A stretch of 22,336 nucleotides of DNA, from the IMG/VR virus record IMGVR_UViG_3300044858_004685, positions 1-22,336 of that record; one strand, given 5' to 3'. This document shows, piece by piece, positions 3-20,810 of this stretch (position 1 is the stretch's first letter; each line of letters begins with the position of its first letter). The position numbers and the translations under genes were made by a program. The notes beneath the pieces were generated by a model. It saw only the letters and a program-made list of their open reading frames with translations, made no database searches and was not told the origin of the DNA. This DNA is from a virus.

Positions 3-1994
3 ATTGGCTCTGTTAGGCGAGTTTGGATGAATAGCGTCCTTGTTTACAACTCTGAAACCAATGACGAAAAAAGCCTAAAATTTATTGAACACACAACTAT
101 TTATACTGGCAATCAAACTACACCATCGTCAGTAATTCAGTCAAAAGAATCCAACCCAGTACCTGCTTTTACTGGAATGTCTTTTTTACTTTTTAATAAT
201 TATCCGATTGCTAATTACGACGGCACTGGATTTCCTACTATTGATATTGAAGTGATTGGAGAAAGTGGAAACAATCCAAAAATAAAAAATATTTTGAAAA
301 CTATTTGTAAATTAGCTGGTAGAACAGACGATCAAATTGACGTAACTGATATTCCTAATGATTACCAAATTCAAGGATTTGATTTATTGTTTGATGGGAC
401 ATCTTTTGCTGATCAGTTAGAAGAACTTATGAGAGCTTTTTTTATTGTGACAGGGGAGCCAAAAGATAAAATCATTTTTAAAAGACAAGAACAATCATCT
501 GATCCTATTTTTATCCCTAAAAGCTCTTTTGGGTCTAAAAAATTTGGAGAAAATCCTATTGACTTTAATGAAAAAAAACTGACTCATTTTAGAGAAACCC
601 CTAGTGCTGTTACGGTATCTGGGCTAAATGTTTTAAAAAATTATGAAACTATTACCGCAGTAGCTAAAGACCCATCAGATACTCACACAAACGAGTTTAG
701 TTTTCAAACTAAGCTAATAGATATAGATATGTTTTTCATGAATATTGCCTCAAAAATTCTTTTTTTAGGGAAAACGCAATCAAAAACTTTTTCAAAAATG
801 TTTTTATTACCAGCATGGGAAAATTTAAAGGTTGGGGATATAATTTTTACTGATAATAATAACAATTATCATCAAGAATTGATGCAAATTACAAAGAAAG
901 TAAGAGGAGTAAATTATTTAATTGAAATTGAAGCTACTCGATTTCAAGGAGTAGGATATTTACCAGATATTCCTGTAGATAACGAATTTCCACCAGACAA
1001 TAACATTCCTCGTCCCTATAACGAATTTCCACCAGACAATAACATTCCTCGTCCCTACGGACGCGCTAACGCTATTCCTATTGAATGCCCAATAGTTAGT
1101 AGCCGAGATGCAGACATGGGAATTTATGTGGCGATTGAAGGTAACTCTAGTTTTAACAGAGGAGCATTATTTTATTCTGATGACAACGGATTAAGCTATG
1201 ATTTTGCTGTTGGCAACATTGCCAACAGCGTAACTGGTACTGTATTAAGCTTCTCCCCAAATTTTAACAACGCTTCTCCTAGTTTTATTGACGATTCAAA
1301 TTGGATACGAGTAAGCATGAATTCAGGGCAATTAGAGCCAGTTACTCTTGAAACATTTCTATCAGGCAAACAATTAGGCTGGTTTTCTACTGGAGAAATT
1401 ATAGCTTTTAAAAATGCTGCTATTGTGTCCAATAATCCCCTAACCTTTGATATTTCATATACAATTCGTGGAGTCAAAGGAACTGAACCGGCTATCTCTA
1501 GGCATATAATAGGAGAAAAATTCGTGTTACTAACTAATTATTTAGTTCGATACCCCTTAAATCTTTCTGATATTAATCGAGAATATTTATTAAAAGTAGT
1601 TCCTAATGGATTACTTGAAACTGATATAGAGGAGGAAGTCTCTCACACAATCACCTTAGAAGGATTGAAGCCCTTCCCTTGCGCTGTAAGAGGGGAAAAA
1701 GATAACAACGATTTAATTATTACTTGGTATCGACGGACGCGGTTAGATGGTCGTTGGATCGACTATATTGATATTGCTTACGCAGCAGGAGAGTTGGACA
1801 GCTATGTAGTTAGAATTTACGATGGAAACACAATAAAACGAGAATGGTCAGTATTGTCAGCCCGAAGCGTCGTTTACACAGAGGCACAACAAATAGCCGA
1901 TTGGGGGTCAGTCCAATCGGCTTACACAGTACGAGTTTTTCAAAATTCAAGCTATCCAGTGCCTTTTAAAGAATCACTGGCAACGATTATCTAA
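3..1994 (+). CDS. GTA ORFg15-like phage tail hub/tip (host specificity) protein, 5' end outside the window
   Basis: This is a tail-tip/hub protein of the type encoded by the last gene (ORFg15) of Rhodobacter-type gene transfer agents and by many siphophages. It would sit at the distal end of the tail and contact the host. The frame is open from the window edge through the first Met at 27, and the residues before it (RRVW) fit the family's RRIW-A-DG segment, so the true start lies upstream. Counting from Met27, residues about 45-62 (PVPAF-G-SFLLFNNYPIAN) match the 'VPAYRGLAYVVFEDLPLADFG' hallmark of the Phage-tail_3 region. Residues from about 550 on (the WYRRTRLDGRW block, then VRIYDG and YTVRVFQNS) match the family's C-terminal beta domain. 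A 13-residue NEFPPDN repeat lies in the middle. It is the only convincing + strand gene and is convergent to the tail operon. Family call is confident; exact role is inferred. Confidence 0.82.
   Translation: MGSVRRVWMNSVLVYNSETNDEKSLKFIEHTTIYTGNQTTPSSVIQSKESNPVPAFTGMSFLLFNNYPIANYDGTGFPTIDIEVIGESGNNPKIKNILKTICKLAGRTDDQIDVTDIPNDYQIQGFDLLFDGTSFADQLEELMRAFFIVTGEPKDKIIFKRQEQSSDPIFIPKSSFGSKKFGENPIDFNEKKLTHFRETPSAVTVSGLNVLKNYETITAVAKDPSDTHTNEFSFQTKLIDIDMFFMNIASKILFLGKTQSKTFSKMFLLPAWENLKVGDIIFTDNNNNYHQELMQITKKVRGVNYLIEIEATRFQGVGYLPDIPVDNEFPPDNNIPRPYNEFPPDNNIPRPYGRANAIPIECPIVSSRDADMGIYVAIEGNSSFNRGALFYSDDNGLSYDFAVGNIANSVTGTVLSFSPNFNNASPSFIDDSNWIRVSMNSGQLEPVTLETFLSGKQLGWFSTGEIIAFKNAAIVSNNPLTFDISYTIRGVKGTEPAISRHIIGEKFVLLTNYLVRYPLNLSDINREYLLKVVPNGLLETDIEEEVSHTITLEGLKPFPCAVRGEKDNNDLIITWYRRTRLDGRWIDYIDIAYAAGELDSYVVRIYDGNTIKREWSVLSARSVVYTEAQQIADWGSVQSAYTVRVFQNSSYPVPFKESLATII
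981..1058 (+). repeat. 39-bp in-frame tandem duplication in the tail hub gene
   Basis: Two adjacent 39-bp units (981-1019 and 1020-1058) are identical except for the last base (T versus C, both Tyr codons). They encode two copies of a 13-residue unit, NEFPPDNNIPRPY, in a Pro/Asn-rich linker between the N-terminal hub part and the C-terminal beta domains. The near-perfect DNA identity points to a recent slippage or recombination event. The reading frame is kept. Confidence 0.95.
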
Positions 1995-2072
1995 GCAGAT
2001 AGCAGTATTTAATTTAAATATGCTAAGTATATCTAGTGTCTTCTTCTAATTTGATTGTAAATAACCTTATTG

Positions 2073-2095
2073 ACAACCAAAATCCTTTTGGTTGT
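2073..2095. terminator. Perfect 10-bp hairpin between convergent genes (possible bidirectional terminator)
   Basis: ACAACCAAAA and TTTTGGTTGT form a perfect 10-bp stem around a 3-nt loop (TCC). It lies 79 bp after the hub gene stop and just past the stop of the converging short gene. The stem is AT-rich and no real T-run follows on either side, so intrinsic termination would be weak. Position is the main argument. Confidence 0.4.
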
Positions 2096-2096
2096 A

Positions 2097-2300
2097 CTAA
2101 GGGAATTGGATCAGATTTTTTTCAATAACCGATCTACTAGCCTTTGCTTGGTCAATTAATTCGCAAATTTCTTGGGCTAACTTACCATGTCCTTGTCTTG
2201 CTTCGTGTGCAGCCATCTGTAGGGGATCAGAATAAAATTGCTGATCTTCTCCTTCTACATGACTTTTTAGAAGTGCTAGGATATGGCGGGCAGTGGACAT
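2097..2300 (-). pseudogene. Fragment resembling the N-terminus of a cyanobacterial AAA-family ATPase (67 aa)
   Basis: The predicted protein starts STARHILALLKSH and continues through a block, MAAHEARQGHGKLAQEI, that I recognise from the first 55-60 residues of an AAA ATPase family common in cyanobacteria. After about residue 56 the resemblance ends and 11 unrelated residues lead to a stop, so the ATPase core (Walker motifs) is missing. The ATG at 2300 is preferred over a GTG at 2309 because GAGG lies 8 nt upstream of the ATG and overlaps the GTG. The flanks hold a transposase remnant and the convergent hub gene. It could be a real small protein, but a truncated gene is more likely. Family recognition is from memory of the sequence pattern. 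Confidence 0.5.
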
Positions 2301-2375
2301 GATAGACACCTCGTTAAGTTAAACTCTCCATCATACTTAATGATTTTAACTGTGACAGGGACTACGCCGATTTAA

Positions 2376-2483
2376 AAAGCTGTAGAATTAATTAATCATC
2401 GTCCTCGAAAATGTCTTGACTATCGAACCTCTTTTGAGGTATTCTATGAATTATTATCAGACATTGATGCACTTCATTTTTGA
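2376..2483 (+). mobile_element. C-terminal remnant of an IS30-family transposase
   Basis: Read on the + strand from 2376, the frame gives KAVELINHRPRKCLDYRT, then SFEVFYELLSDIDALHF and a TGA at 2481-2483. This matches the characteristic end of IS30-family transposases (LNNRPRK-L-YRTPYEVF...ALH-stop). An in-frame TAA at 2373-2375 closes the frame upstream and no further transposase sequence is visible before it, so only about 35 codons remain. No terminal inverted repeat or target duplication is evident. The last 27 nt overlap the 3' end of the coiled-coil gene on the other strand, so the insertion or a later deletion probably set that gene's present end. Confidence 0.65.
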
Positions 2484-2678
2484 ATTGGCGCTTTCTATTA
2501 ACGATAAACGCTTTACCAAAATATCTAAATACGTTTGCATTGCCTCTGATTGCTGTTCCAAAAGAGCTAGTTGCTCTAATGAAATGCTTTCATGTGGCGA
2601 TTCCAACGCCTTGTTTAAAGCAGTTAGCCTTTCTTCAAGCTCCGTTTTCTCTTGTTTTAATCTATCTAACCAGGACAT
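2457..2678 (-). CDS. Small coiled-coil protein resembling crAss001_48-related phage proteins (73 aa)
   Basis: The protein is almost wholly helical: an N-terminal heptad stretch (LDRLKQEKTELEERLTALNK), then LEQLALLEQQSEAMQTYLDIL. That layout (E-K-ELEE, then LL-EQ--AM--Y--IL--R) is the pattern of the small 'crAss001_48-related' proteins found in many phages; their function is unknown. The ATG at 2678 is chosen because AGGAGG lies 7 nt upstream, while the TTG six bases earlier does not fit. It follows the 226-aa gene by 26 nt and is the last gene of the tail operon. Its final nine residues are encoded by DNA antisense to the transposase remnant and may not be original. Confidence 0.72.
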   Translation of the reverse strand: MSWLDRLKQEKTELEERLTALNKALESPHESISLEQLALLEQQSEAMQTYLDILVKRLSLIESANSKMKCINV

Positions 2679-2704
2679 AATCAATCCTCCTCTATTGTGT
2701 AAAC

Positions 2705-3385
2705 TTATTCTAACTTTTCACGATCCAAAAACGAATAAATTTTTTTAATCAATTCTCCACTATCAGAAAAAACATTACTATCGGAATATTTGGTTGTACT
2801 GGCTTCTTCAAAAAATATATTAATTCCCTCTGACCATTCAGCTTTTAACTCTGAGTCATCTACTTGCTCTAATAGATTATTACTAAGAGATTGAAGTTCT
2901 TGAAGCTGTGTTTTGACATGAGGTGCTTTAGCATAAATTCTTCCCCAAGTGGTCAAAAAATCAAGAGTTTGTTCGGCAATTAAAGGGGTTCCGTCCGCAA
3001 GACTAACTTTAAAAAAAGCGTCGAGGGCAGGGGCAAGAAGCGCAAAAATTGGTAATTCCCAACTATTGACAGAAGCGGTAAGAACAAGTAGGCTGATTCT
3101 AGATGGACTATCAGCGGGAATACTATTGCGAGATAAAATTGACGCAATAAATAACCAAACAACCTCATTATTAATCTCGCTGTCATTCTGTAGAAGCTTA
3201 CGTCCCAATACTCCTAATCCGATTTCTAAAGCTTCGATCGATCCCAGTGTCAACAGAGCGGCAAACTCTCTAACATGACTATCTACCTTTTTCAGATTGC
3301 CGAAAGCTCTATCAATTTCTTCTCTAGCTTTATCACTATTGCCAGAGTCTAAAAATTGCTGTACTATTCTAAGTATCGTTGTCAT
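2705..3385 (-). CDS. Unknown alpha-helical protein in the tail operon (226 aa)
   Basis: I do not recognise a family. The protein is predicted to be mostly helical and fairly hydrophobic in residues 45-135, with short Leu/Ala-rich helices that resemble a helical-repeat fold rather than membrane spans. The C-terminal third is acidic. It starts 35 nt after the NlpC/P60 stop, has no clear Shine-Dalgarno sequence before the ATG at 3385, and is followed 26 nt later by the coiled-coil gene. Its place after the tape measure and P60 genes, where other phages carry distal tail proteins, makes a tail-associated role possible, but nothing in the sequence shows one. Confidence 0.75.
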   Translation of the reverse strand: MTTILRIVQQFLDSGNSDKAREEIDRAFGNLKKVDSHVREFAALLTLGSIEALEIGLGVLGRKLLQNDSEINNEVVWLFIASILSRNSIPADSPSRISLLVLTASVNSWELPIFALLAPALDAFFKVSLADGTPLIAEQTLDFLTTWGRIYAKAPHVKTQLQELQSLSNNLLEQVDDSELKAEWSEGINIFFEEASTTKYSDSNVFSDSGELIKKIYSFLDREKLE

Positions 3386-3420: not shown

Positions 3421-3852
3421 TTATTTTACCACTCCTAAAGTAGGTACTCGATAAATTAGTACAGGCGGGTATTCATGAATATAGGTCTTCATCACGCCAT
3501 TTATTGAGTCAGCGTGAATGTACTCACTATCTCCCAGATAAATCCCCACATGACCATTTACTCCTGACTTACGAAACATCAAAATATCTCCTTTACACAA
3601 ATCACCTTCAACTCTATCTAGTAACCGATCAAGAAATTTGACTAAGAAGTTATTCCGGGGAATCCGTTCATAGTTTTCAATAATGAAATCATGGGGCAAG
3701 AATCCGACTTCAATCCCTACGCCAGCGATAAATCCTACACAATCGGTTCCAATCCCTTTAAGCGATTGACCATGAAACCAAGGAGTACCGAGCCATTCAA
3801 GAGCTTCGGTAACAATTTGATTACCCAAAGAATCGTTTTTTAGTTCGTTCAT
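3421..3852 (-). CDS. NlpC/P60 family cell-wall peptidase of the tail (143 aa)
   Basis: A cysteine peptidase of the NlpC/P60 (CHAP-like papain) fold, which cleaves peptide stems of peptidoglycan. The catalytic Cys38 sits in GTDCVGF, the His is His101 in NGHVGIYLG, and His113 in EYIHAD is the usual third residue. The 143-aa length fits a stand-alone domain like GTA ORFg14. The start at 3852 lies 32 nt inside the 3' end of the tape-measure gene, so translation is probably coupled. In GTA and related siphophage modules this peptidase directly precedes the hub gene; here that hub homologue is on the opposite strand 1.4 kb further on. It probably assists local wall opening during DNA injection. Confidence 0.92.
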   Translation of the reverse strand: MNELKNDSLGNQIVTEALEWLGTPWFHGQSLKGIGTDCVGFIAGVGIEVGFLPHDFIIENYERIPRNNFLVKFLDRLLDRVEGDLCKGDILMFRKSGVNGHVGIYLGDSEYIHADSINGVMKTYIHEYPPVLIYRVPTLGVVK

Positions 3853-6800
3853 TTTGTGTATTTTCCCGTTCTTTCAATTGATTCAAACTATAACCCATAT
3901 CATTCCGTGATTCTACAGTCACGTTATTGGTGTTATTAATTACCAAAGACTGATTAGAGCTATTGTTATTTGAGGTTGTGGAGTAATTAGGCTTACCCCC
4001 GACAAATCCTCCATTAGCATAGTTCTTAATAGGAGCATTATTTCTGTAGTCTAGATAGGCTTCTGTTTCTTTAGGGTTGAGAATTAATTCATCTTCATTG
4101 GCTACGATTAATCGAGGTTTTCGGCCTCCCGACATTGCTCGTTCACGCTGAAAAGCTGAAATGATATTTTTCTCTATCGGAACATTAGCATCTCCAACTT
4201 TCCCACCATCACTAAATAGGCTGAATCCTGTACCTAGAGAAAAGGCAGAAGCCGGAGCAGAAGCAAAGCTAGAGGCTCCTACACTACCAAGTGATCCAAT
4301 CGAACCAAGTCCCCCAAGTCCTCCACTAAAAATCCCTGTTATTCCGCTAAGTAGTCCATTAAATAAGCCACCTCCGCCACCGCCACCAAAAATAGAAGAA
4401 AAGATGTTACCTGCTGGTTTAAAGATACTGTTTAGGGCGTTAGTGAAGAAATTGCCTACTGGCCCGATGATTGCATTAAATAGCGACTCAAAAGCTTGAG
4501 TAATTGGCTTTGTAAATCCATCGATAGCAGAAGTTAGGGCATCAATAGCAGGCTTGGTAATACCCTCAACAAATTTTGTCATAATATTTAATCCAAGACT
4601 ACTAAAAGCTGATCCTATTCCTTTTCCTTCTCTAATGTCAGAGAAAAAGCTTTCAGCTGCGCCACGATTTGGGGAAGCGTCTAACTCCGCTCGTTCTAAT
4701 CTTAATTCTGCAAGTTTTTCCCATTCCGAGCGAATATTAGCCACATATTCAGCGTACTGTGGCAAGTCTTTGTAAGGTTCTAAATAATCCTCTAGTTCCT
4801 CTTTTTCTTTTTGTAGGCTAATACGTTCGGCAAGGATAGCAGAATTATCAAATAATCCAAAACCAGACTGAAATTCTAGTTGCATTCTTTGGATAGTTAA
4901 ATCATTTAACCGATCACGAATACTCCTGACTGTATCTCTGGTTTTTCTAAATGATGCTTCCAAGGTAGCTACTCCCTGATTTCTGCCTAATTGTTCAATT
5001 GCTTGATCAAGAATTGTTACTTGTTCTTTAGCTAATTCAGCGTTTTTAGCTAAAGCATCAATACTATCTGTCATTTCTTTGAGAAATTCAGGGGGGAGAG
5101 CTATGCCTTTTCTTTGAAATTCTCCTAAGATTTCTTTTATTGCGTCGCTGTATTTTTGTTGAGCCTCAGCATTTAAAAGTAAAGTCCGTCGCTGGTCTTC
5201 TAGTGATTCAATCTGAGAGCGATATTGTCGAGAGACTTCTGTAGCACTCTTATTAATTTCTTCTTGTACTGTCAAATACCCTTTAGAGTTGATAGTCAAA
5301 TCAGCAACATTTTCGGAAGCATCTCTTAAAGTACGTTCTAATGCACGGGCATCTTCCTCTTGCTGCCGTCTAAATTTCATTGATCTGTCAAGAGCATTGT
5401 TTAGATTTTGTTGCTCTTCTAGCCGTCTTGAAAACTCCTCAGCGTTTTGGTTGGCTGTTTCAGCGTTGCGAATTTGATCAGCGGCCGCATCAAGATTACC
5501 CGTAGGAAGATTAGGAACGGGAGGTAAATTAGGACTCTGGAAGTTAATCGGATTGTCTTTAGGAACCGGTGGTAAATCGGCATCCCAGAAGTTATCTCGG
5601 TTTTGATTAGGTAGAGCCGGTAATTGGGCTATAGGTGGAGGACTACTAAATTCTGGACCGCCTTTTCCTTCTTTTGTTTTTTCTTTTGTTAAAACACGGG
5701 CAGGAGAAGGGTTAGGGGTGGAGTCTTTAATGGATTGGCTAATTGCATTAGTAGCATTAGTTATTATTTTTCGATTATTTAGTTGATTGCCGTTAATGTT
5801 TGCATAAGCAGTTACAATATATTCTTTCCCATTAATGTTTACCAGTCCAACGTTACCAATAACTTTAGAGTTATTTCCAATTTTTCCGCCGATTTCATTA
5901 TTATACTTAAAATTTCTTGTTTGTCTCAGAGATTGTTCAGCTAATTGACTTGCAGGATTTTGATTTTTAATTAAAGACTGCATAGCTAACGTTACGTCTT
6001 GTGCTGTTGAAATGTTTGGAGTTCCACTGCCTGGTATATTTAAATACCTAGAAATAGTAGTGTTTTTATAACCTTCTTTTCTGGCTAATTCTGTAGCTTT
6101 GGTTAGCCCACCTAGCCGATCAATTAAAACATTAGTTGCCGTATTATCTGACTTTTCTAGCATTAACTGTACTAGCTGTTCAACTGTTTTAACTTGATTG
6201 GCTTTTAATTGTCCGTGTGGATCAACCAAAGGCAATTTTATGGCGATAGCATCTTTTAAGGAAAGTTTTCCGCTTGTTATTTCTTTGGCAATCAAATCAG
6301 CAATAATAACTTTAATTGTACTAGCTGGTGACGCTGGGGGTGTTTGAGCATTTTTAGAATATACAGTTTTTCCGCCAACTTCTTGAACTAAAACAGATTG
6401 AATATTTTTTGGTAATCTGTTGGTGATTTGTTGCTGAACTGATGGAGAAGGGTTAGGGGTGGAAGTTGATGGAGTGGGTGAACCGCCTTGATTTCTTCTG
6501 ATTTGTCGAATACGGTTTGATGCTCCGCTGTTAGCAGGATTGCCGTCATATCGCAGTGCGTCTAGTTCGGATTGAGTACGAGGGGCATTTGGTTGGTATT
6601 TTCGTAAAGACTGATCGTAAACCTTTAACAGGTCTTCCATCCGTTTCATACCTTGCCCTGGGTAATTAGCCCCTGGGAAAGATGCCCATTCTTTGCGGGT
6701 TGCGTTAATTGCCCCACGAATATCTCCCTTAAGAAGCTCGTCTAATCCACCTCTCATTAAAATCCGGCTTAATGCGACTAAATCTTGAGAGACAGGAGAA

Positions 6801-9800
6801 AAATCTTTTAATCCTAATTTCGCTTTTTCTTCATCCCATGTAAAATCCATAATCTGGTATCTTCCAGATGCCGATGAACTGGTCGATCCAAACGGGATTC
6901 TTTGGCGTGGATGGTCTGCAAAAGAACTAAATTGTCCATGTCCAAAAAGAGTGTTATATCCCTTATTTGGCATATTGGCAGTACCTTCTGCGTAAGCAAT
7001 AATATCAAGAAAGGCCTTGACGTGAGGATTGTTTAAATGCTGAGATAATTCTTGACCGCGTGGTGTTAACCCTTTGGGAATTGAAGACAACTGTGGCGGT
7101 GGCGGCGGTAAAAACCCTCCCCCATTCCACACAGGAGCAGGGGTGAAATTATTAGGTGCTGGTAGTATTAAACCTCCCTTAGCTTTTCTAATTGCCTCCG
7201 CAGTTTCTTCTATACTTTTTACTAAGTCTTCCCCAGAAGTCTTAATATTTGGGGGAATAGCCACTAACTCAGAATTGATTAATTTAATTGGTTCTGGAAG
7301 TGTATTAAGATTTGTGACAATATCCTTGATTGATTGGGGAATAAAGCCTAATTCTTTATTGGTTTGTCGGATTAAATCAGCTAGAGTACGATTGAGGTCT
7401 TCCTGAGTCCGTTTAATATCCTCAATCGTTTTTAGTCGGTTTCTTTCAGCGTCTTGCTGTTGCTCTTGTAAGTTACGGATATTTCTTAGAGTAGAGATAT
7501 AGGAAGTTTCTATCTCCTCGGTTCGGGATTGGAAGGTGCGTCCGCGACTAGCAATATCAGCTTGTCCCTGTACAAATTCTAGGAAAATGTCGCCTAATTC
7601 TTTACCAGCGTCGCTTGTACCGGGTATTAATAAACGGTTTTTAACTTGCTGTACCCTGATTCTATCGGTCGCATCCAGTAGCTGATTTTGGGCATTTAAG
7701 AGGTTCTTATCGAGTTCCCTGACTAAATCAGTGTAACTTTCAGATAGAGAACGATTTTCTCTAAAAGCTGACAGTTGAGCATCTTCAATCTGTCTTCTAT
7801 AATCTTCAATCTGACGATTAAAGTCGATTATCTGACGGTCAAGGTTGCGGTAGTAGTCTTGTAGTGATGTTTGTTGCTGTAATAGGTTAGCGCGGGCTTG
7901 TTCTAGGGCTAATCGGGTATTATCAACCTCTTGCTGAATCACATTAGGGTCGTCTGACGCACTTTCTAATCGACGATAAGCCTCTCCTAACAATCTCTCT
8001 TGGTTGCGAACTTCTGATAAGGCATCCCGATAGGAAGCGGCTGGCCCCCCAAAGGGTAATTGCCTTAAAGTAGCAATTCTCTCGTTGACATTGGCACCGA
8101 CTATTGATGCTTGTCTGGCATTTCTTGCGCGCTCTCGTCTAGCGTTAGCAATTTCTAGTTCTGTATCAACAATTGATTTATCAATAGTTAAAGTTTGTCG
8201 TCTAATAGATGCTTGCTGTTTAGCTGTTTCTAATACCTGTTCTAATTCAAAAGGCACTTGATCTCCCAACTGTTGTAACCGATCACCTATAGCTTCTGGT
8301 GACACACTTCCCTGCTGTAATGCCGTTCTAAAATCTATTCCATTTAATTCAGGCATTAACTCAGTTATTCGCTGATTAATCTGATCTGTTAGAGTGTTTT
8401 GTAATTCTTTTTCTTTAGTTGCCAGTAATCCATTAAGCGAATTAAACTGATCCTTGACAATAGATAGGCTCTGTTCTCTAACGGTCAAGTCTATTTCAAA
8501 CGGCTTCAGGTTCCCAGATAAAACTTGTCGTTTAATATCTGTTTCAGACAAAATAGTTCGACCACTAGAGACAAATTCAATATTAGATAAAGCTCTTGCT
8601 ACTTTATTTATTTGTTCTGTTAATCGTTGATAGTTGACTAAATTCTCTTTGACTGCTTCGTTATATTTTTCTTGCGATTCTTTTAATTTTCTAAGTTGAA
8701 CTTCAGTAATTTCTAGCTGGATACTAGCATTATCTTTTTGGGAATTAGAAGACTCTGGATCATCTAAAACTTTTTTAATTGCTGTAATTCTTTCTTCTGT
8801 AGATGCTATCTCATTAACAATAAGCCCAATTTGAGGAAAGTATTTTTCCGTTAAAGCTTGTATTTCTTGGTTTACTTTCGCAATTTCTTGACGAACAGAT
8901 GTAGCTTTTTTAACGTCAGCATCTCCACTAGCTATGATTTCATCTATCTTGAGGTCTTTCGCTTTTTGCCGCAATGTGTCAAGTTTACCCGTAAATTCGG
9001 TAATCTTTGTATCACTAAATGTGTCAGTTGATAATTTTAAGATTTGTGTTGTATCACTTAGTCCCCCCGCAGTAAACTCTAAACTTTTATCTCTTTCTCT
9101 GTTGTTTTTAAATTGCTGAATTGCGGTTGCACTATCAGTTATAACAGTAGAAGCTTTAGGTATAGGTAAAGGTTTTTCTAGTAATCGTCTCAATTCTTGT
9201 AACGATTCTTGAGTTGATTTAAGGGATCGTTTAGACTCTTCGGAGCCTGCGTTGATGTATTGATAAAGCCCTTTAAAAGCTTCCATTACACCAAAGACTA
9301 AAGCAGTCCATCCTAGCCCTTTAACAAATCCTATACCTATTTGTGCAATTGATGCTTTTGTAGATGCTGCGGTAACTCCTAGTGCTTTTAGCCCTAACTT
9401 TAAAAGACCAAGCCTGTGTAACATTTGAACAAATACACCCGATACGACAATCCCCATCGAAACAAAAGTAGCTACAATTTTATCTCCATGATCCTCTAAA
9501 GTCCTAAGTCCACTGATAACTGTAGGTATCCCTAATTTAGCCACTTCTAATAAAGGTTTTCCCATTTCTACGCGAAGCGAGTTTAATTGATTTTCAAGTT
9601 TTGCAACTTGGGCAAAAGCCGTGTCATTAATTACATTAATCCCTCCTGCTGATTCTAAAGTAGTTTGAGTTGCAAATTTCGACAAAAATTCATCTGATGC
9701 CACTGATCCAGACTCAATTAATTTAATAAATTCTTGAGACGTTACACCATAAGCTCTAGCGGCAATCTGTAACGCGCCTGGCATTGCTTCACCTAACTGA

Positions 9801-12800
9801 GAGTTAAGTTCTTCCATTGAAACACGACCTTTACTAGCTATTTGAGTAATAGCTAGTAAAGCTCTGTCTTGCTGTTGGGAATTAGCACCTCTAGTAGCCA
9901 ATCCTAATGTTATTCCTTCAAAAATTTTATCTTTTTGAAACTCTAGTGAAGTGTTCATTACAGCAGCACTAAACTGCTGATAGTTTTTGGCAGAAGACAA
10001 AAAAGATGTTCCAAGTTTATCTGCTTGTACTTTTAGCCTAGATAAAGCAGACTCAGCGTCGTCTGTGGTTAAGGATAAAGCCATTTCTAACCGCTCTGCT
10101 TCAATTGCTGTTTGAAAAGCTTCTTTTCCAAATTTATTTAATAAACCAATAGTTGATTCAAGAATGTTAAAACCAACTATACCTAATATTGCGTTTCTTA
10201 TTAGTCCAGCAACTTTCTTAATTGGTTCTGGTAATTTATCAAGTGATCTTTGAACTTTATCAGCAATGGTGCTAAGTTGCTCTAACTTACTTTTACTTTT
10301 AAAATCATCAATTTTATCAAGAATCCCTCCAATATTAAAAACTTTTCTCCCTACCTGTTTAATATTTGTTTTTATTGTTTCACGGTTTAGGGGTTGCATT
10401 TGTTTAGCAGATTCTTCCATCTCCCATTGTCTAAACTTTACTTCATTTCTTACATTACTAGGAAGTGCATTAAAAATTCCTTTCCCTGCTTTTTGGACAT
10501 TAGTTTTTAAAGATTCACGGTCTAAAGATTTTACTTTCCCGACAAAATCTTTTATCTCTATCTCCTTAAATTTTAATTCAGTTTTTATTCCATCTAGTCC
10601 TAGTATTAAACCTTTTTTGATGTCACGACCAATTCGCATCATAACTTTTGATGGAGATTGAATCTCAAGTGTATCTCTAATTGTTTTCGGTAAGGTTAAA
10701 GCAATTTCCCGCATTTCTGCATTTAAATCACCAGACTCGCTTTTAATTCCTATTTTTATCCCTTCTATAATGTCAGAGCCAAGTCCTTTAGTCTTATTTT
10801 TATTTGCTAAAACAGGATTTAAGCTTAAGATTAGTTTCTCTAAATTAGCCTCTATTAACTCTTTATTCCCACCAGAAGCTATTGATTTTGCCGATTGTTC
10901 TATAGCCTTTGCGAATAGAGTCTTAAAGCCTACTGTAGTAGTATCGACACCAGTTTTCTGAATTTGTTGAATTAGTCCTGATTTAATAGGAGATAATTCT
11001 TTTATACCAATTGTTTCTTGAGCAGTCTGAACTTTTTTTCCTGTACTACTTAAGTATCCTTTTGCAGACTGAACAGAAGCACCGACTCCCCCAGAAGCTA
11101 TAGAAGTGGGCTGTCCAGCTTCTTTGAGTAATTTTAGTATGTCTTCTAAATCAGAAGAGGCTTGTTCTTTGGCAGCTAATATTTCATTAGCTACTTTTTT
11201 TGCTTGATCTAATTCACCAGAATCTATTAATGTTTTTAATTTTTGATAACGATCACTAAACCATTTTCTAATTGCGTCAGTTTGAGCCTGTGCTTTAACA
11301 ATATCAGCAGATGCAGGATTACTTTGAATTAAAGACTTTAGGTCTTTTGTCTGTTTAGACAGTGACACAAGTTCTTTTTCTTTAACACCTATATTGCTAC
11401 TAACTTTATTGTCGGTTGTTATATTTTTAGACGGGTTATTTTTTGAACTAATACTAGGAATCTCAAACGATTTCTCTTCAGTGCCTAATTTAATGTTAGG
11501 AATATTGGTTGCTACTATACTATCAACTTTTAAATGTTCTAAAGGTTTTGTAGCTTCTTTGACTTCTTTTAGCTGTGTTTCGATAGCTACTAATTCTCTT
11601 TGTTTTAATTGCAAAGATGACATATCAAATAGTTCTAATTGATCAGGAATATCTTCAATATTCTCCTGTAATTTATCAACTTCTTTATTCAATATCTTGA
11701 TAATTTCTGCGTTTTCAAGGTAGTCAGAAGAAGAATGTGACGCAATACCGGAAATAACTTGACTTTGCTTGGATACATCTGATGCCCCCATAGTTTGTTC
11801 TGCTAGTCTAATAGGGTCATTTTCTCCCATATAACGAGAAAAATTATCTATTTGAGTAGTCCCGACCATTGACGGGGTAGCAATAGCTACCCCTTTTATA
11901 TTTTCAATACCAGCTTGGTTTGCTAATCTAGTCGCACCTTCAGAAACAAAACCCCCAGCAGAATAACCAAGTAAATCAATTTGAGCATTAGGATTTAATT
12001 CTCTAGCCTTGATAACTGCAGCAAGCATTGAAACTGAATCTTCGTTAGTCCCTGACAATCCTTGCCCCACCGTTTGAGCGGCTGCTTCACCAGCCCATTT
12101 CAAAGGATTATCTTTAATGGATGTACTTAAATCAGTTGCTTTATTAGCAATAGGGATAACTAAAACCCCATCTTCTAGTTTTGGTTGAAGATTTTCAGCA
12201 ATTTCTTTGCTTCCTTCTCCCTGTTTACCAGCAAAACCCCCAGAAACAAAAACTATTTTTTTTGCTTCACTTACAGCTTTTTCGTCTAGTTGGACTGTTG
12301 CTGATTGTTTTCTAGCTTTTGCGATAGACTCACCTGATTTTAGTTCTTTTCTTGCATTAGCAAAAGTATCGATAGGAGACATTGCAACTTGTCTCATTGA
12401 ATCAGATACTTTTAGCAATTGTTTTGCTAACTCTTGTGCTTTACTAGGGTCTTGAGTATTATAAAATTCAATGGCTAACTTTTTTAATTCTGCCATTTCT
12501 TCTTTTGTTCTTTTAGTTGCGTCTGCTATAGCCTCAGAACCTTTTTGTGCCGATTCAGTTTCTAAATGCTCGTTTAATACTGTTTTGCCTTTTCTAACTG
12601 TTTTCCCAGCAAGCTTACCAAGATCGGAACCACCAGTTTCATACAAGTTTGTTCCTGCTTCTTTGTCAAAAGCTTTAATATTATTCCTGGTAAATATATC
12701 TGCGTAAGTGTAAGCCGCGCCTTCTGAATAGCTCTTTAAAAAGTTGGCAGGCATTGACATTACTGCACTGACAAAATTCTTTCTAGTTTCAGCAACTTTT

Positions 12801-13597
12801 AGTATTGCTGGTAATACTGCTGACAAAATTTTGGCCAATGATCCTGACAAAATTTGCGACAATAACTCCACGGCCACCATTGCACTAAACCCACCACCTC
12901 GAATATTGGGTCTTTGAGATATATTTTGCTGCTCTGGTGCAACAGGTTTTTGAGTTATATTTTGTTGTTCTACTGAACCGGGTTTTTGAATCGTACTTTG
13001 CTGTTCTGTTGTAACAGGTATTGTCTTGATTTGAGTTTGTTTATGCTGTTGATCAAGTTTTGTTAGATTTTGATTACTTGTTGTTATTGATACGTTTTGA
13101 TTGGCTTTTTTTCTTGTTTTTTCTTGTGCAATATTTGTTTTTTCGTGGTCTTTTTGAAGTTTTGTAAGATTTTGACTGTCTGTTGTTGGCTTAATAGTAG
13201 TTTCTTTAGAAGACTCAATAACTTGATTTTGTAAAGCAAGAGTTTCTTCTAATTGTTTTTGAAGTGCCAATAATTCTGTGTCATCAACTTGAACTTTAAT
13301 GACTTTCTTATTAAATTCATCGATGCGCTTTTCTGTAACAGTTAAATACTCGTTTAATGCTTCTAATGCAACGTGATTGACATTAGGAGCAATAATCTTT
13401 TTATTAAGTTTATCATAATGATTCTCTTTAACCGTTAGATGCTGGTTCAAGGCATCTAACGGACGGTGATCGACCTTGGGAGTAATAACTTTTTGCTCTA
13501 GGGAAGAAAGCTGGTCTTTAGCCGATTTGATACCGGCATCATACTGAGATGTATTTAGCCCTAGACCGATTTCTAAAGTACCAAGTGATAAAGACAT
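3821..13597 (-). CDS. Giant tail tape-measure protein with alpha/beta-hydrolase, GH104 muramidase and PBP/beta-lactamase-like domains (3258 aa)
   Basis: The start is the ATG at 13597: it shares one base with the upstream stop (TAATG), has GGGGAG 8 nt upstream, and begins MSLSLGTLEIGLGLNTSQYD, the usual N-terminus. Approximate residues: 30-125 three ~31-residue repeats; 195-235 Gln-rich repeats; 445-640 alpha/beta-hydrolase fold (GYS546AGG, Asp594, His621); 977-995 SPSKVM-GRDIKKGL motif; 1165-1310 TMP_3 tape-measure domain; 1375-1450 hydrophobic segments; 1460-2110 coiled coil; 2190-2330 lambda-R-like GH104 (Glu2204); 2405-2620 class-A beta-lactamase/PBP-like (S2426TIK, S2483DN, K2572IG); 2700-2960 coiled coil; 3020-3110 Gly-rich hydrophobic; then a GGFVGG-type tail. 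It would set tail length, be packed in the tube and be ejected into the envelope. Enzyme activities are inferred from motifs. Confidence 0.95.
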   Translation of the reverse strand: MSLSLGTLEIGLGLNTSQYDAGIKSAKDQLSSLEQKVITPKVDHRPLDALNQHLTVKENHYDKLNKKIIAPNVNHVALEALNEYLTVTEKRIDEFNKKVIKVQVDDTELLALQKQLEETLALQNQVIESSKETTIKPTTDSQNLTKLQKDHEKTNIAQEKTRKKANQNVSITTSNQNLTKLDQQHKQTQIKTIPVTTEQQSTIQKPGSVEQQNITQKPVAPEQQNISQRPNIRGGGFSAMVAVELLSQILSGSLAKILSAVLPAILKVAETRKNFVSAVMSMPANFLKSYSEGAAYTYADIFTRNNIKAFDKEAGTNLYETGGSDLGKLAGKTVRKGKTVLNEHLETESAQKGSEAIADATKRTKEEMAELKKLAIEFYNTQDPSKAQELAKQLLKVSDSMRQVAMSPIDTFANARKELKSGESIAKARKQSATVQLDEKAVSEAKKIVFVSGGFAGKQGEGSKEIAENLQPKLEDGVLVIPIANKATDLSTSIKDNPLKWAGEAAAQTVGQGLSGTNEDSVSMLAAVIKARELNPNAQIDLLGYSAGGFVSEGATRLANQAGIENIKGVAIATPSMVGTTQIDNFSRYMGENDPIRLAEQTMGASDVSKQSQVISGIASHSSSDYLENAEIIKILNKEVDKLQENIEDIPDQLELFDMSSLQLKQRELVAIETQLKEVKEATKPLEHLKVDSIVATNIPNIKLGTEEKSFEIPSISSKNNPSKNITTDNKVSSNIGVKEKELVSLSKQTKDLKSLIQSNPASADIVKAQAQTDAIRKWFSDRYQKLKTLIDSGELDQAKKVANEILAAKEQASSDLEDILKLLKEAGQPTSIASGGVGASVQSAKGYLSSTGKKVQTAQETIGIKELSPIKSGLIQQIQKTGVDTTTVGFKTLFAKAIEQSAKSIASGGNKELIEANLEKLILSLNPVLANKNKTKGLGSDIIEGIKIGIKSESGDLNAEMREIALTLPKTIRDTLEIQSPSKVMMRIGRDIKKGLILGLDGIKTELKFKEIEIKDFVGKVKSLDRESLKTNVQKAGKGIFNALPSNVRNEVKFRQWEMEESAKQMQPLNRETIKTNIKQVGRKVFNIGGILDKIDDFKSKSKLEQLSTIADKVQRSLDKLPEPIKKVAGLIRNAILGIVGFNILESTIGLLNKFGKEAFQTAIEAERLEMALSLTTDDAESALSRLKVQADKLGTSFLSSAKNYQQFSAAVMNTSLEFQKDKIFEGITLGLATRGANSQQQDRALLAITQIASKGRVSMEELNSQLGEAMPGALQIAARAYGVTSQEFIKLIESGSVASDEFLSKFATQTTLESAGGINVINDTAFAQVAKLENQLNSLRVEMGKPLLEVAKLGIPTVISGLRTLEDHGDKIVATFVSMGIVVSGVFVQMLHRLGLLKLGLKALGVTAASTKASIAQIGIGFVKGLGWTALVFGVMEAFKGLYQYINAGSEESKRSLKSTQESLQELRRLLEKPLPIPKASTVITDSATAIQQFKNNRERDKSLEFTAGGLSDTTQILKLSTDTFSDTKITEFTGKLDTLRQKAKDLKIDEIIASGDADVKKATSVRQEIAKVNQEIQALTEKYFPQIGLIVNEIASTEERITAIKKVLDDPESSNSQKDNASIQLEITEVQLRKLKESQEKYNEAVKENLVNYQRLTEQINKVARALSNIEFVSSGRTILSETDIKRQVLSGNLKPFEIDLTVREQSLSIVKDQFNSLNGLLATKEKELQNTLTDQINQRITELMPELNGIDFRTALQQGSVSPEAIGDRLQQLGDQVPFELEQVLETAKQQASIRRQTLTIDKSIVDTELEIANARRERARNARQASIVGANVNERIATLRQLPFGGPAASYRDALSEVRNQERLLGEAYRRLESASDDPNVIQQEVDNTRLALEQARANLLQQQTSLQDYYRNLDRQIIDFNRQIEDYRRQIEDAQLSAFRENRSLSESYTDLVRELDKNLLNAQNQLLDATDRIRVQQVKNRLLIPGTSDAGKELGDIFLEFVQGQADIASRGRTFQSRTEEIETSYISTLRNIRNLQEQQQDAERNRLKTIEDIKRTQEDLNRTLADLIRQTNKELGFIPQSIKDIVTNLNTLPEPIKLINSELVAIPPNIKTSGEDLVKSIEETAEAIRKAKGGLILPAPNNFTPAPVWNGGGFLPPPPPQLSSIPKGLTPRGQELSQHLNNPHVKAFLDIIAYAEGTANMPNKGYNTLFGHGQFSSFADHPRQRIPFGSTSSSASGRYQIMDFTWDEEKAKLGLKDFSPVSQDLVALSRILMRGGLDELLKGDIRGAINATRKEWASFPGANYPGQGMKRMEDLLKVYDQSLRKYQPNAPRTQSELDALRYDGNPANSGASNRIRQIRRNQGGSPTPSTSTPNPSPSVQQQITNRLPKNIQSVLVQEVGGKTVYSKNAQTPPASPASTIKVIIADLIAKEITSGKLSLKDAIAIKLPLVDPHGQLKANQVKTVEQLVQLMLEKSDNTATNVLIDRLGGLTKATELARKEGYKNTTISRYLNIPGSGTPNISTAQDVTLAMQSLIKNQNPASQLAEQSLRQTRNFKYNNEIGGKIGNNSKVIGNVGLVNINGKEYIVTAYANINGNQLNNRKIITNATNAISQSIKDSTPNPSPARVLTKEKTKEGKGGPEFSSPPPIAQLPALPNQNRDNFWDADLPPVPKDNPINFQSPNLPPVPNLPTGNLDAAADQIRNAETANQNAEEFSRRLEEQQNLNNALDRSMKFRRQQEEDARALERTLRDASENVADLTINSKGYLTVQEEINKSATEVSRQYRSQIESLEDQRRTLLLNAEAQQKYSDAIKEILGEFQRKGIALPPEFLKEMTDSIDALAKNAELAKEQVTILDQAIEQLGRNQGVATLEASFRKTRDTVRSIRDRLNDLTIQRMQLEFQSGFGLFDNSAILAERISLQKEKEELEDYLEPYKDLPQYAEYVANIRSEWEKLAELRLERAELDASPNRGAAESFFSDIREGKGIGSAFSSLGLNIMTKFVEGITKPAIDALTSAIDGFTKPITQAFESLFNAIIGPVGNFFTNALNSIFKPAGNIFSSIFGGGGGGGLFNGLLSGITGIFSGGLGGLGSIGSLGSVGASSFASAPASAFSLGTGFSLFSDGGKVGDANVPIEKNIISAFQRERAMSGGRKPRLIVANEDELILNPKETEAYLDYRNNAPIKNYANGGFVGGKPNYSTTSNNNSSNQSLVINNTNNVTVESRNDMGYSLNQLKERENTQNERTKKRFFG

Positions 13598-20470: not shown

Positions 20471-20777
20471 GTTTTTTGATCCTCAGCAATAGCCTCTTCC
20501 AAATTTCTTGATCGATTAGTCCGCCCTGATAATAAGGAATATGATAATAGACTTTTTCAAATTCTTCTTTTGAAGGAATCTCTACATTTAGTGACTTTGC
20601 TTCTGTCAATACTTTTGAGGTTTTGTCTTGAACTCTTTCTTTTTGCGCTTCTTTTTGCGCTTTAAGGTGTTCTAGATCAGATAGCTTGGCTTGAAAAATC
20701 TCAATTTGAGATTTTAAGTAGTCTATTTCAGACTGTAAGTCAGCAAGTTGAGAATCAATTTTGTCGATGGTAGCCAT
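20466..20777 (-). CDS. Small coiled-coil protein with own promoter (103 aa)
   Basis: The start is the ATG at 20777 (MATIDKIDSQLADLQSEIDY) with AAGGAG 7 nt upstream. A longer reading frame from 20891 would include promoter C in the coding region and has no ribosome-binding site. Residues 5-55 form a clear coiled coil; the C-terminal 40 residues (EIPSKEEFEKVYYHIPYYQG, then IWKRLLLRIKKP) look like a small folded or binding segment ending with a basic tail. No family recognised. The leader (CAAAGGAGTTCAACATGG) is identical to that of the 97-aa gene. Confidence 0.75.
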   Translation of the reverse strand: MATIDKIDSQLADLQSEIDYLKSQIEIFQAKLSDLEHLKAQKEAQKERVQDKTSKVLTEAKSLNVEIPSKEEFEKVYYHIPYYQGGLIDQEIWKRLLLRIKKP

Positions 20778-20810
20778 GTTGAACTCCTTTGTGTGTTTTG
20801 GTATATACCC

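Follow-up and report, generated by a model that had tools for sequence, protein, structure and literature searches.

Here, we interpret the tape measure protein (TMP) encoded in a 22,336-base stretch of DNA from an uncultured virus (IMG/VR virus record IMGVR_UViG_3300044858_004685; hereafter, the window) as probably being a modular multi-enzyme entry protein that carries two swappable sets of enzymes, which may be exchanged at short linker repeats and would fit the phage to the wall of its host. In the window, the TMP contains a cutinase-like alpha/beta-hydrolase, a GH104 domain and a PBP-A-like serine domain, and the gene directly after it encodes an NlpC/P60 peptidase. An earlier note on this DNA had proposed these four envelope-active units as an entry machine within one coupled gene pair. 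Pfam, PDB, structure and motif evidence supports all four, with the correction that three lie in the TMP, while NlpC/P60 is a separate gene that overlaps the last 29 coding bases and the stop codon of the TMP gene. The note had correctly placed the wall domains at residues 2200-2600; the hydrolase lies at about 425-660 of the 3,258 residues. Mapping the gain and loss of domains among relatives, as the note had suggested, gave nine contents in 38 copies of the site that holds the wall domains, and N-terminal modules that are swapped as well. The domain combination of the window is one of these nine contents and is not fixed.

By sequence and gene context, the protein is a tape measure, with the predicted role of setting tail length. 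It is very long, contains a Pfam TMP_3 domain (E=3.2e-20, over the cut-off), also matches PHROG tape measure families, and is encoded beside NlpC and megatron-like genes (Table 1). Simple hydropathy detects four hydrophobic stretches over the threshold; the two strongest are a candidate membrane-inserting part, the other two are residues 248-268 and 1135-1154, and three of the four fall between the hydrolase and the wall domains.

Several lines of evidence support the assignment of the two wall domains. The first matches lambda lysozyme (PDB 1am7) at E=2e-27 and a PHROG endolysin at 6e-38, and its catalytic Glu is kept in 36 of 37 matches, the last one not being covered; by sequence match and Glu, it is a GH104 domain of the lambda R-type transglycosylases, with predicted activity. 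The second matches Pfam Beta-lactamase2 (E=2.4e-25, over the cut-off), and its best PDB sequence match is PBP-A of Thermosynechococcus (2j7v; 6.5e-12). Among its relatives, SxxK is present in 27/31 and SDN in 26/31, the remainder not being covered, i.e., in 27/27 and 26/26 of those aligned. In the third motif, Lys is kept in 29/31 (two not covered) and Gly in 28/31 (one Asp, two not covered). The domain has the SxxK and SDN of the PBP-A family together with KIG as third motif, and is PBP-A-like by its best match. Overall, the window and all relatives that aligned have the predicted catalytic residues tested intact, the one altered glycine being the only exception. The earlier note had reasoned that its proposal would fail if the enzyme-like domains were inactive relics in most relatives; because the catalytic residues are kept across relatives, the envelope domains do not look like relics, and we reject that reading.

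The evidence for exchange comes from relatives recruited by similarity to the window TMP. Three scans of viral contigs, merged by coordinates, gave loci on 66 IMG/VR contigs and, with the window, 67 records. We refer to the stretch between the end of the conserved core and the conserved C-terminal part as the slot; it is complete in 38 of the 67 records, the window included, and the other 29 were not counted. The 38 slots comprise nine architectures and 25 distinct sequences, built from GH104 (in two forms, GH104 and GH104b), SLT, SLT2, PBP-A-like, YkuD-like and M23 modules, and near-identical TMPs differ by entire domains. GH104 with PBP, the set of the window, occurs in 17 records, GH104 with YkuD in five, GH104b with YkuD in four, M23 with SLT in four, GH104b with YkuD and PBP in three, and SLT with PBP in two, while SLT2 with PBP, SLT2 alone and GH104 alone were each seen in a single record. 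By our assignment, one glycan-cutting domain is present in all 38 slots and at least one peptide-acting module, usually one or two, in 36. The flanks vary little. On the 5' side, 37 of 38 records share at least 95% protein identity with the window, three of these 37 being aligned over 44-138 residues only, and the remaining record, which carries an insertion, shares 85%; on the 3' side, identity is 79-100%.

The alternative modules are recognizable to different degrees. M23 (7e-11) and SLT (1e-18) of contig L018 are both over their Pfam cut-offs, as is the PBP domain of contig L096, which is 67% identical to that of the window. The YkuD-like module resembles the C-terminal part of the lysozymes encoded by S-2L and in nine Nodularia phage records (24-26% identity over 91-93% of the module); the Nodularia phage version matches Pfam YkuD at 0.0021, below the cut-off, and its His and AGC residues align with those of the slot module. 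His, Ser and Cys of the YkuD-like module are kept in 12/12, with Thr replacing Ser in the two phage lysozyme genes aligned, and the catalytic residues of M23 (4/4), SLT (Glu, 7/7) and SLT2 (Glu, 2/2) are kept as well. One contig with an incomplete slot has a weak M23-like stretch (Pfam 0.07) followed by an SLT domain.

The PBP cassette of the window is bracketed by a perfect 20-bp direct repeat, for which the chance expectation in shuffles is 0.00; both copies sit in linkers rich in proline and could be related by descent. The PBP domain is missing from contig 3300044625_001977, which has a single copy of the repeat. At the 5' end, seven of the ten contigs listed match the TMP gene at 93-95% over its first 95-103 bases. 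Past this anchor, DNA matches longer than 80 bases are absent from these seven until base 3565 or ~5735, after which pieces of 89-98% DNA identity resume. In the lineages rejoining at 5735, the core proteins can still be aligned, with 35-40% identity, which argues for divergence or distant exchange and not for absence.

The N-terminal module of the window appears to be a cutinase-like hydrolase. Scanned alone, the domain matches Pfam Cutinase at 2e-4, below the cut-off, and five further Pfam families (four hydrolase families and one whose function is unknown) more weakly still. Its AlphaFold2 model has a mean pLDDT (predicted local distance difference test) of 59, with 95 of 236 residues below 50; the strand before the nucleophile reaches ~84 and the next two ten-residue blocks 68 and 80. 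Cutinases are the best Foldseek matches to this model (3e-4), with TM-scores of 0.26-0.46 among the matches listed. VIA-align gives a cutinase at Z 9.0 with a root-mean-square deviation of 4.0 over 139 residues; because a best Z of 7-8 is usual for models without a clear match, this value is support and not proof. Among aligned copies, ten of eleven of which are window-type, Ser and Asp of the predicted triad are kept in 11/11 and His in 10/11, one not being covered; the ten window-type copies keep the whole triad. A hydrolase is not unique to the window type, a possibility that we considered and rejected: hydrolase-like domains, at 19-22% identity, are also present in contigs L050, L055 and L117, of which that of L050 matches Pfam LIP at 2.2e-4, below the cut-off, and that of L055 matches no hydrolase family. 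Another, in L053, was spotted by eye only and has no Pfam match.

The window-type hydrolase N-terminus is present in 10 records, window included, and other TMPs have either a region that we refer to as NtB or a long N-terminus, the open frames of the latter group reaching 5,680 codons. NtB, represented by residues 121-1020 of the L018 frame, is 96-100% conserved within one contig group and contains no recognized enzyme domain; it yielded no convincing Pfam domain and, in PHROGs, only weak tape measure matches. Two types of kinase-like module were found. Type 1 is over the 31.7-bit Pfam cut-off in L055 (34.4) and L117 (38.1) and keeps Lys, HxD..N and Asp in 6/6 TMPs, as protein kinases do. Type 2 stays below the Pfam cut-off (1.2e-4; 21.9 vs 25 bits) and has HxD..N and Asp in 8/8 and Lys in 7/8, one not being covered. 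The longest open frame, in L055 (56-17095), combines wall domains with hydrolase-like, kinase and ParB-like domains in a single tape measure, and a kinase-containing stretch of it had no match in our phage search set of 50,697 records, from which records very near the window may be omitted. A module in some long N-termini matches PHROG 21, labelled portal protein (2e-58); in L055 (1940-2252) it is 37% identical to part of a hypothetical protein (2,563 residues) encoded by a Prochlorococcus podophage. We take this module to be ParB-like from a motif, which Pfam did not confirm, and a PDB search with the region gave chance-level matches only. N-termini and slots occur in several pairings: window-type N-termini pair with four slot sets (eight records with complete slots), NtB with three (six such records), kinase type 1 with two (two records) and type 2 with three (five records). 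SPS[KW] spacers, mostly GNASPS, recur in the long N-termini: of the 11 listed, 10 contain between one and three copies. In L055, GNASPS[KW] spacers at frame residues 2325, 2690 and 3153 lie between N-terminal modules and are probably helical.

The fourth unit, the NlpC/P60 gene, follows the TMP in 44/44 contigs that have more than 450 bases beyond it. The Pfam NLPC_P60 match (6.4e-9, over the cut-off) and the catalytic residues Cys38 and His101, located by motif, identify it as an NlpC/P60 peptidase with a predicted peptidase role. Among relatives, Cys is kept in 46/46 and both His in 45/46, the remaining one not being covered by the alignment. The gene resembles g14 of the Rhodobacter capsulatus gene transfer agent (RcGTA), which we take to be an NlpC/P60 protein, and matches the g14-type equivalog TIGR02219 at E=7e-12, with 45.9 bits against a cut-off of 81.9 bits and, hence, outside that equivalog.

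Altogether, we suggest a model whereby the length ruler and the hydrophobic part of the TMP carry two swappable enzyme sets. The C-terminal set would be a wall-opening cassette at the tail tip, beside the NlpC/P60 protein of the tip; its place near the tail exit follows from the reported orientation of TMPs, with the C-terminus at the tip and the N-terminus at the head (PMC5099701). There, GH104 would cut the glycan strand. The PBP-A-like serine DD-peptidase would cut cross-links, by analogy with PBP-A of Thermosynechococcus, a DD-carboxypeptidase and DD-endopeptidase (PMC11189452), and NlpC/P60 would cut peptides, by analogy with RcGTA g14, a peptidase of 150 residues that degrades peptidoglycan (PMC7296036). 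The N-terminal set at the head end, here the cutinase-like esterase, would reach the envelope last. This tip-first order of release, which the earlier note had raised, fits the published orientation. Recombination at the short repeated proline-rich linkers may swap enzymes between relatives, and this swapping would fit the phage to the wall of its host. The entry toolkit looks like an exchangeable cassette in a fixed slot. More tentatively, the TMP could be a two-ended delivery device, in which the C-terminal cassette opens the wall and N-terminal esterase, kinase-like and ParB-like effectors enter the inner membrane or cytoplasm, both sets being exchanged within one host group as polymorphic toxins exchange their tips; we regard this extension as possible and somewhat doubtful.

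Several points weigh against a modular entry protein. It is read from the genes, and its activities are predicted. The hydrolase is identified through a Pfam match below the cut-off and a model of modest mean confidence. The third motif of the PBP-like domain is KIG, and KID in one relative, where K[TS]G is usual. The YkuD-like module has no Pfam match of its own, found no match in a PDB search and has an AlphaFold2 model with a pLDDT of 35, and SLT2, the sole glycan cutter in 2/38 slots, is weak (Pfam SLT 0.042 over 24 residues). Finally, contigs found through TMP similarity are no random sample, and metagenome assembly could misjoin strains. The relatives are IMG/VR contigs without exception, in whose conserved flanks reads could collapse, and three architectures, including the GH104 slot without PBP, were seen once; but six of the nine architectures were found in at least two contigs, and because most slot sets recur in several contigs, it is very improbable that some alternative slots are chimeric assemblies. 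Given that TMP lysins and phage mosaicism are well known, the modules might also be ordinary lysin domains shuffled by ordinary mosaicism, in swaps without a function of their own. This we consider unlikely in view of the single glycan cutter assigned to each slot, the intact catalytic residues and the near-constant flanks.

A different role for the peptide-acting modules can also be envisaged. DD-peptidase folds bind stem peptides, and the PBP-like and YkuD-like modules could bind the wall and anchor the tape measure while the glycosidase and NlpC do the cutting. The unusual third motif would be in line with this, as would the two of 38 slots without a peptide-acting module, which indicate that the module is not essential. 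The complete retention of SxxK and SDN in aligned relatives and the occurrence of the same fold within the lytic gene cluster of a Microcoleus phage speak against it, and we judge wall binding to be quite improbable. Still harder to sustain is the idea that the PBP-like domain is a beta-lactamase, or a decoy, that shields the phage or the cell from beta-lactams. At least 24 NCBIfam class A models match the domain, but all those listed do so far below their curated cut-offs. In addition, the window has no Glu between KEGY and TAQD, where class A beta-lactamases have Glu166; opposite Toho-1 chains, Leu of the window aligns at position 166. The Toho-1 chains listed read Ala at this position and are presumably mutants. 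The best match of the domain is PBP-A, a peptidase. Because the Glu166 place holds no Glu and wall peptidases replace the domain in other versions of the slot, we reject a beta-lactamase function, to which we assign next to no probability. We retain the modular entry protein with two swappable enzyme sets as the preferred, probable explanation.

The host is likely Microcystis, which forms blooms, or a close cyanobacterium. This is suggested by two observations: the 226-residue gene beside NlpC is ~92-96% identical at the DNA level to a gene in nine records (two phages appear twice), all of them Microcystis phages or cyanophage MaMV-DH01, and the available part of one study reports the PBP-A family from cyanobacteria only (PMC11189452). 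A relative contig retrieves the same nine records. The conserved C-terminal part of the TMP had no match among the 50,697 phage records. A query with the N-terminal 1,432 residues matches 703 of these records, in no case over 80% of its length, and in the 40 listed the similarity is confined to the surroundings of the TMP_3 domain; the GH104 and PBP region matches 563, none covering 80%, and the 30 listed match its GH104 end. The PBP domain has one match, a separate 653-residue gene of Microcoleus phage My-WqHQDG. In that phage (L136 4735-10376), the beta-lactamase-fold gene adjoins amidase, LytH-type and M23 genes. A plasmid search with the PBP domain gave five records at 27-29% identity, and scans of genome contigs with the C-terminal and PBP alignments, which used two short patterns each and carry little weight for prophages, found no relative. 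In the open-licence literature, searched through titles, abstract openings and partial listings, we found neither a TMP with a PBP or beta-lactamase domain nor any account of cassette exchange or of the present set of modules. The earlier note knew of tape measures with one wall-cleaving domain, but of no such combination; the 50,697 phage records agree with this in having no match to the C-terminal part and a single one, in a separate gene, to the PBP domain, but TMPs with several host-like motifs, as in Barnyard, and TMP transglycosylases were already known.

Known systems share individual features with the window family. TMP transglycosylases are well known, and the available part of a survey of enterococcal phages reports no other TMP lysin (PMC10194240). 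The GH23 TMPs of that survey, like the window TMP, have the glycan cutter inside the tape measure; unlike them, the window family joins peptide-acting modules to it. In mycobacteriophages, the Barnyard TMP has the host-like motifs 1 and 2, and proteins containing TMP motif 3 hydrolyse peptidoglycan (PMC1796659). These motifs 1-3 (Rpf-like, Rv1115-like and mt3; TM4, Barnyard) are similar in being embedded, host-like and variable by phage, and differ in domain families and hosts; one slot with constant flanks, a PBP-A-like DD-peptidase and kinase-like cargo are not part of the account as far as available (PMC1796659). The RcGTA tail tip also combines a small peptidase gene (150 vs 143 residues) with a megatron-like baseplate protein. 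Its TMP is short, and the available text mentions no enzyme domain in it (PMC7296036); in the window, moreover, the megatron-like gene is on the strand opposite the TMP. Polyvalent proteins, compared here through a paper that cites them, similarly unite a number of domains of the effector type in a single large protein that is assumed to enter with the DNA (PMC7824862), whereas in the window family it is the tape measure that carries the domains, with delivery being conjectural. MinS1 has a 95-residue "kinase domain protein" gene separate from its 1,155-residue TMP (PMC8876498), a lake phage has a D-alanyl-D-alanine carboxypeptidase gene reported as an auxiliary gene (PMC10611076), and the available part of PMC9022992 does not mention enzyme domains within tape measures. 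PBP-A of Thermosynechococcus elongatus (2j7v) shares the fold by sequence, SxxK and SDN with the window domain; it is a cellular enzyme, whereas the window version is a tail-protein domain with a KIG third motif. Phage T5 pb2, to go by a title alone, is reportedly a fusogenic and muralytic tape measure and, as such, resembles the window TMP in combining membrane and wall activity.

Mosaicism in tape measures was addressed in 2023 in a study of phage protein modularity by Smug and co-workers. The available part of this study describes a mosaic signal in tape measures and no confirmed genuine recent case (PMC10684548). With near-constant flanks, nine enzyme sets and cassette gain or loss at a 20-bp repeat, the family described here is a candidate for recent mosaic tape measures. 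With such a family, one can test which of the wall bonds is limiting for entry into a cyanobacterium, for what reason one glycan cutter goes together with peptide-acting modules, and whether effectors for the cytoplasm, such as kinases, can travel on a tape measure. The modules may also be a source of enzymes suited to the peptidoglycan of cyanobacteria.

Table 1. Features of the window discussed in the text; residues are those of the encoded protein.
Feature	Position	Strand	Remarks
Tape measure protein (TMP)	3824..13597	minus	3,258 aa from ATG; stop 3821-3823; TMP_3 and PHROG tape measure matches
Conserved 5' anchor of TMP gene, ~100 nt	13495..13597	minus	last stretch kept before N-terminal swapping
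Cutinase-like alpha/beta-hydrolase	11618..12325	minus	residues 425-660; Ser546, Asp594, His621 by motif
TMP_3 tape-measure domain	9563..10126	minus	residues 1158-1345; Pfam
Two hydrophobic segments, candidate membrane-inserting part	9284..9484	minus	residues 1372-1394, 1420-1438; hydropathy
Exchange slot, approximate extent	5704..7098	minus	TMP nt 6,500-7,894; residues 2167-2632; between conserved flanks
GH104 lytic-transglycosylase domain	6521..7057	minus	predicted catalytic Glu2204
20-bp direct repeat, copy 1	6444..6463	minus	before PBP cassette
PBP-A/class A beta-lactamase-fold DD-peptidase-like domain	5768..6442	minus	by motif: SxxK 2426 (Ser2426/Lys2429), SDN from 2483, KIG 2572 (Lys2572)
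20-bp direct repeat, copy 2	5703..5722	minus	after PBP cassette; in frame, 741 nt from copy 1
Conserved C-terminal part of TMP	3824..5650	minus	85-96% identity vs 8 chosen relatives
NlpC/P60 peptidase gene	3421..3852	minus	143 residues; overlaps TMP end; resembles RcGTA g14 type; Pfam
Megatron-like (RcGTA) baseplate protein, C-terminal part	27..1994	plus	strand opposite to TMP in window

The genes beyond NlpC/P60 are rearranged among the relatives. The megatron-like gene lies opposite the TMP strand in the window and five related contigs and on the same strand in 18 others (tblastn), and a multi-kilobase tail segment (window 27-3385 region) is inverted between relatives. In L017, a comparison of both end regions of this segment found no inverted repeats; in contig 3300044620_001600, a 29-bp inverted match of 90% identity flanks it (L089 12563-12591 / 20750-20778). 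The position of the 226-residue gene of unknown function (window 2705-3385) around the inverted segment varies among relatives. Elsewhere among the tail genes, window 18502-19059 matches PHROG 18508, labelled kinase (4e-65).

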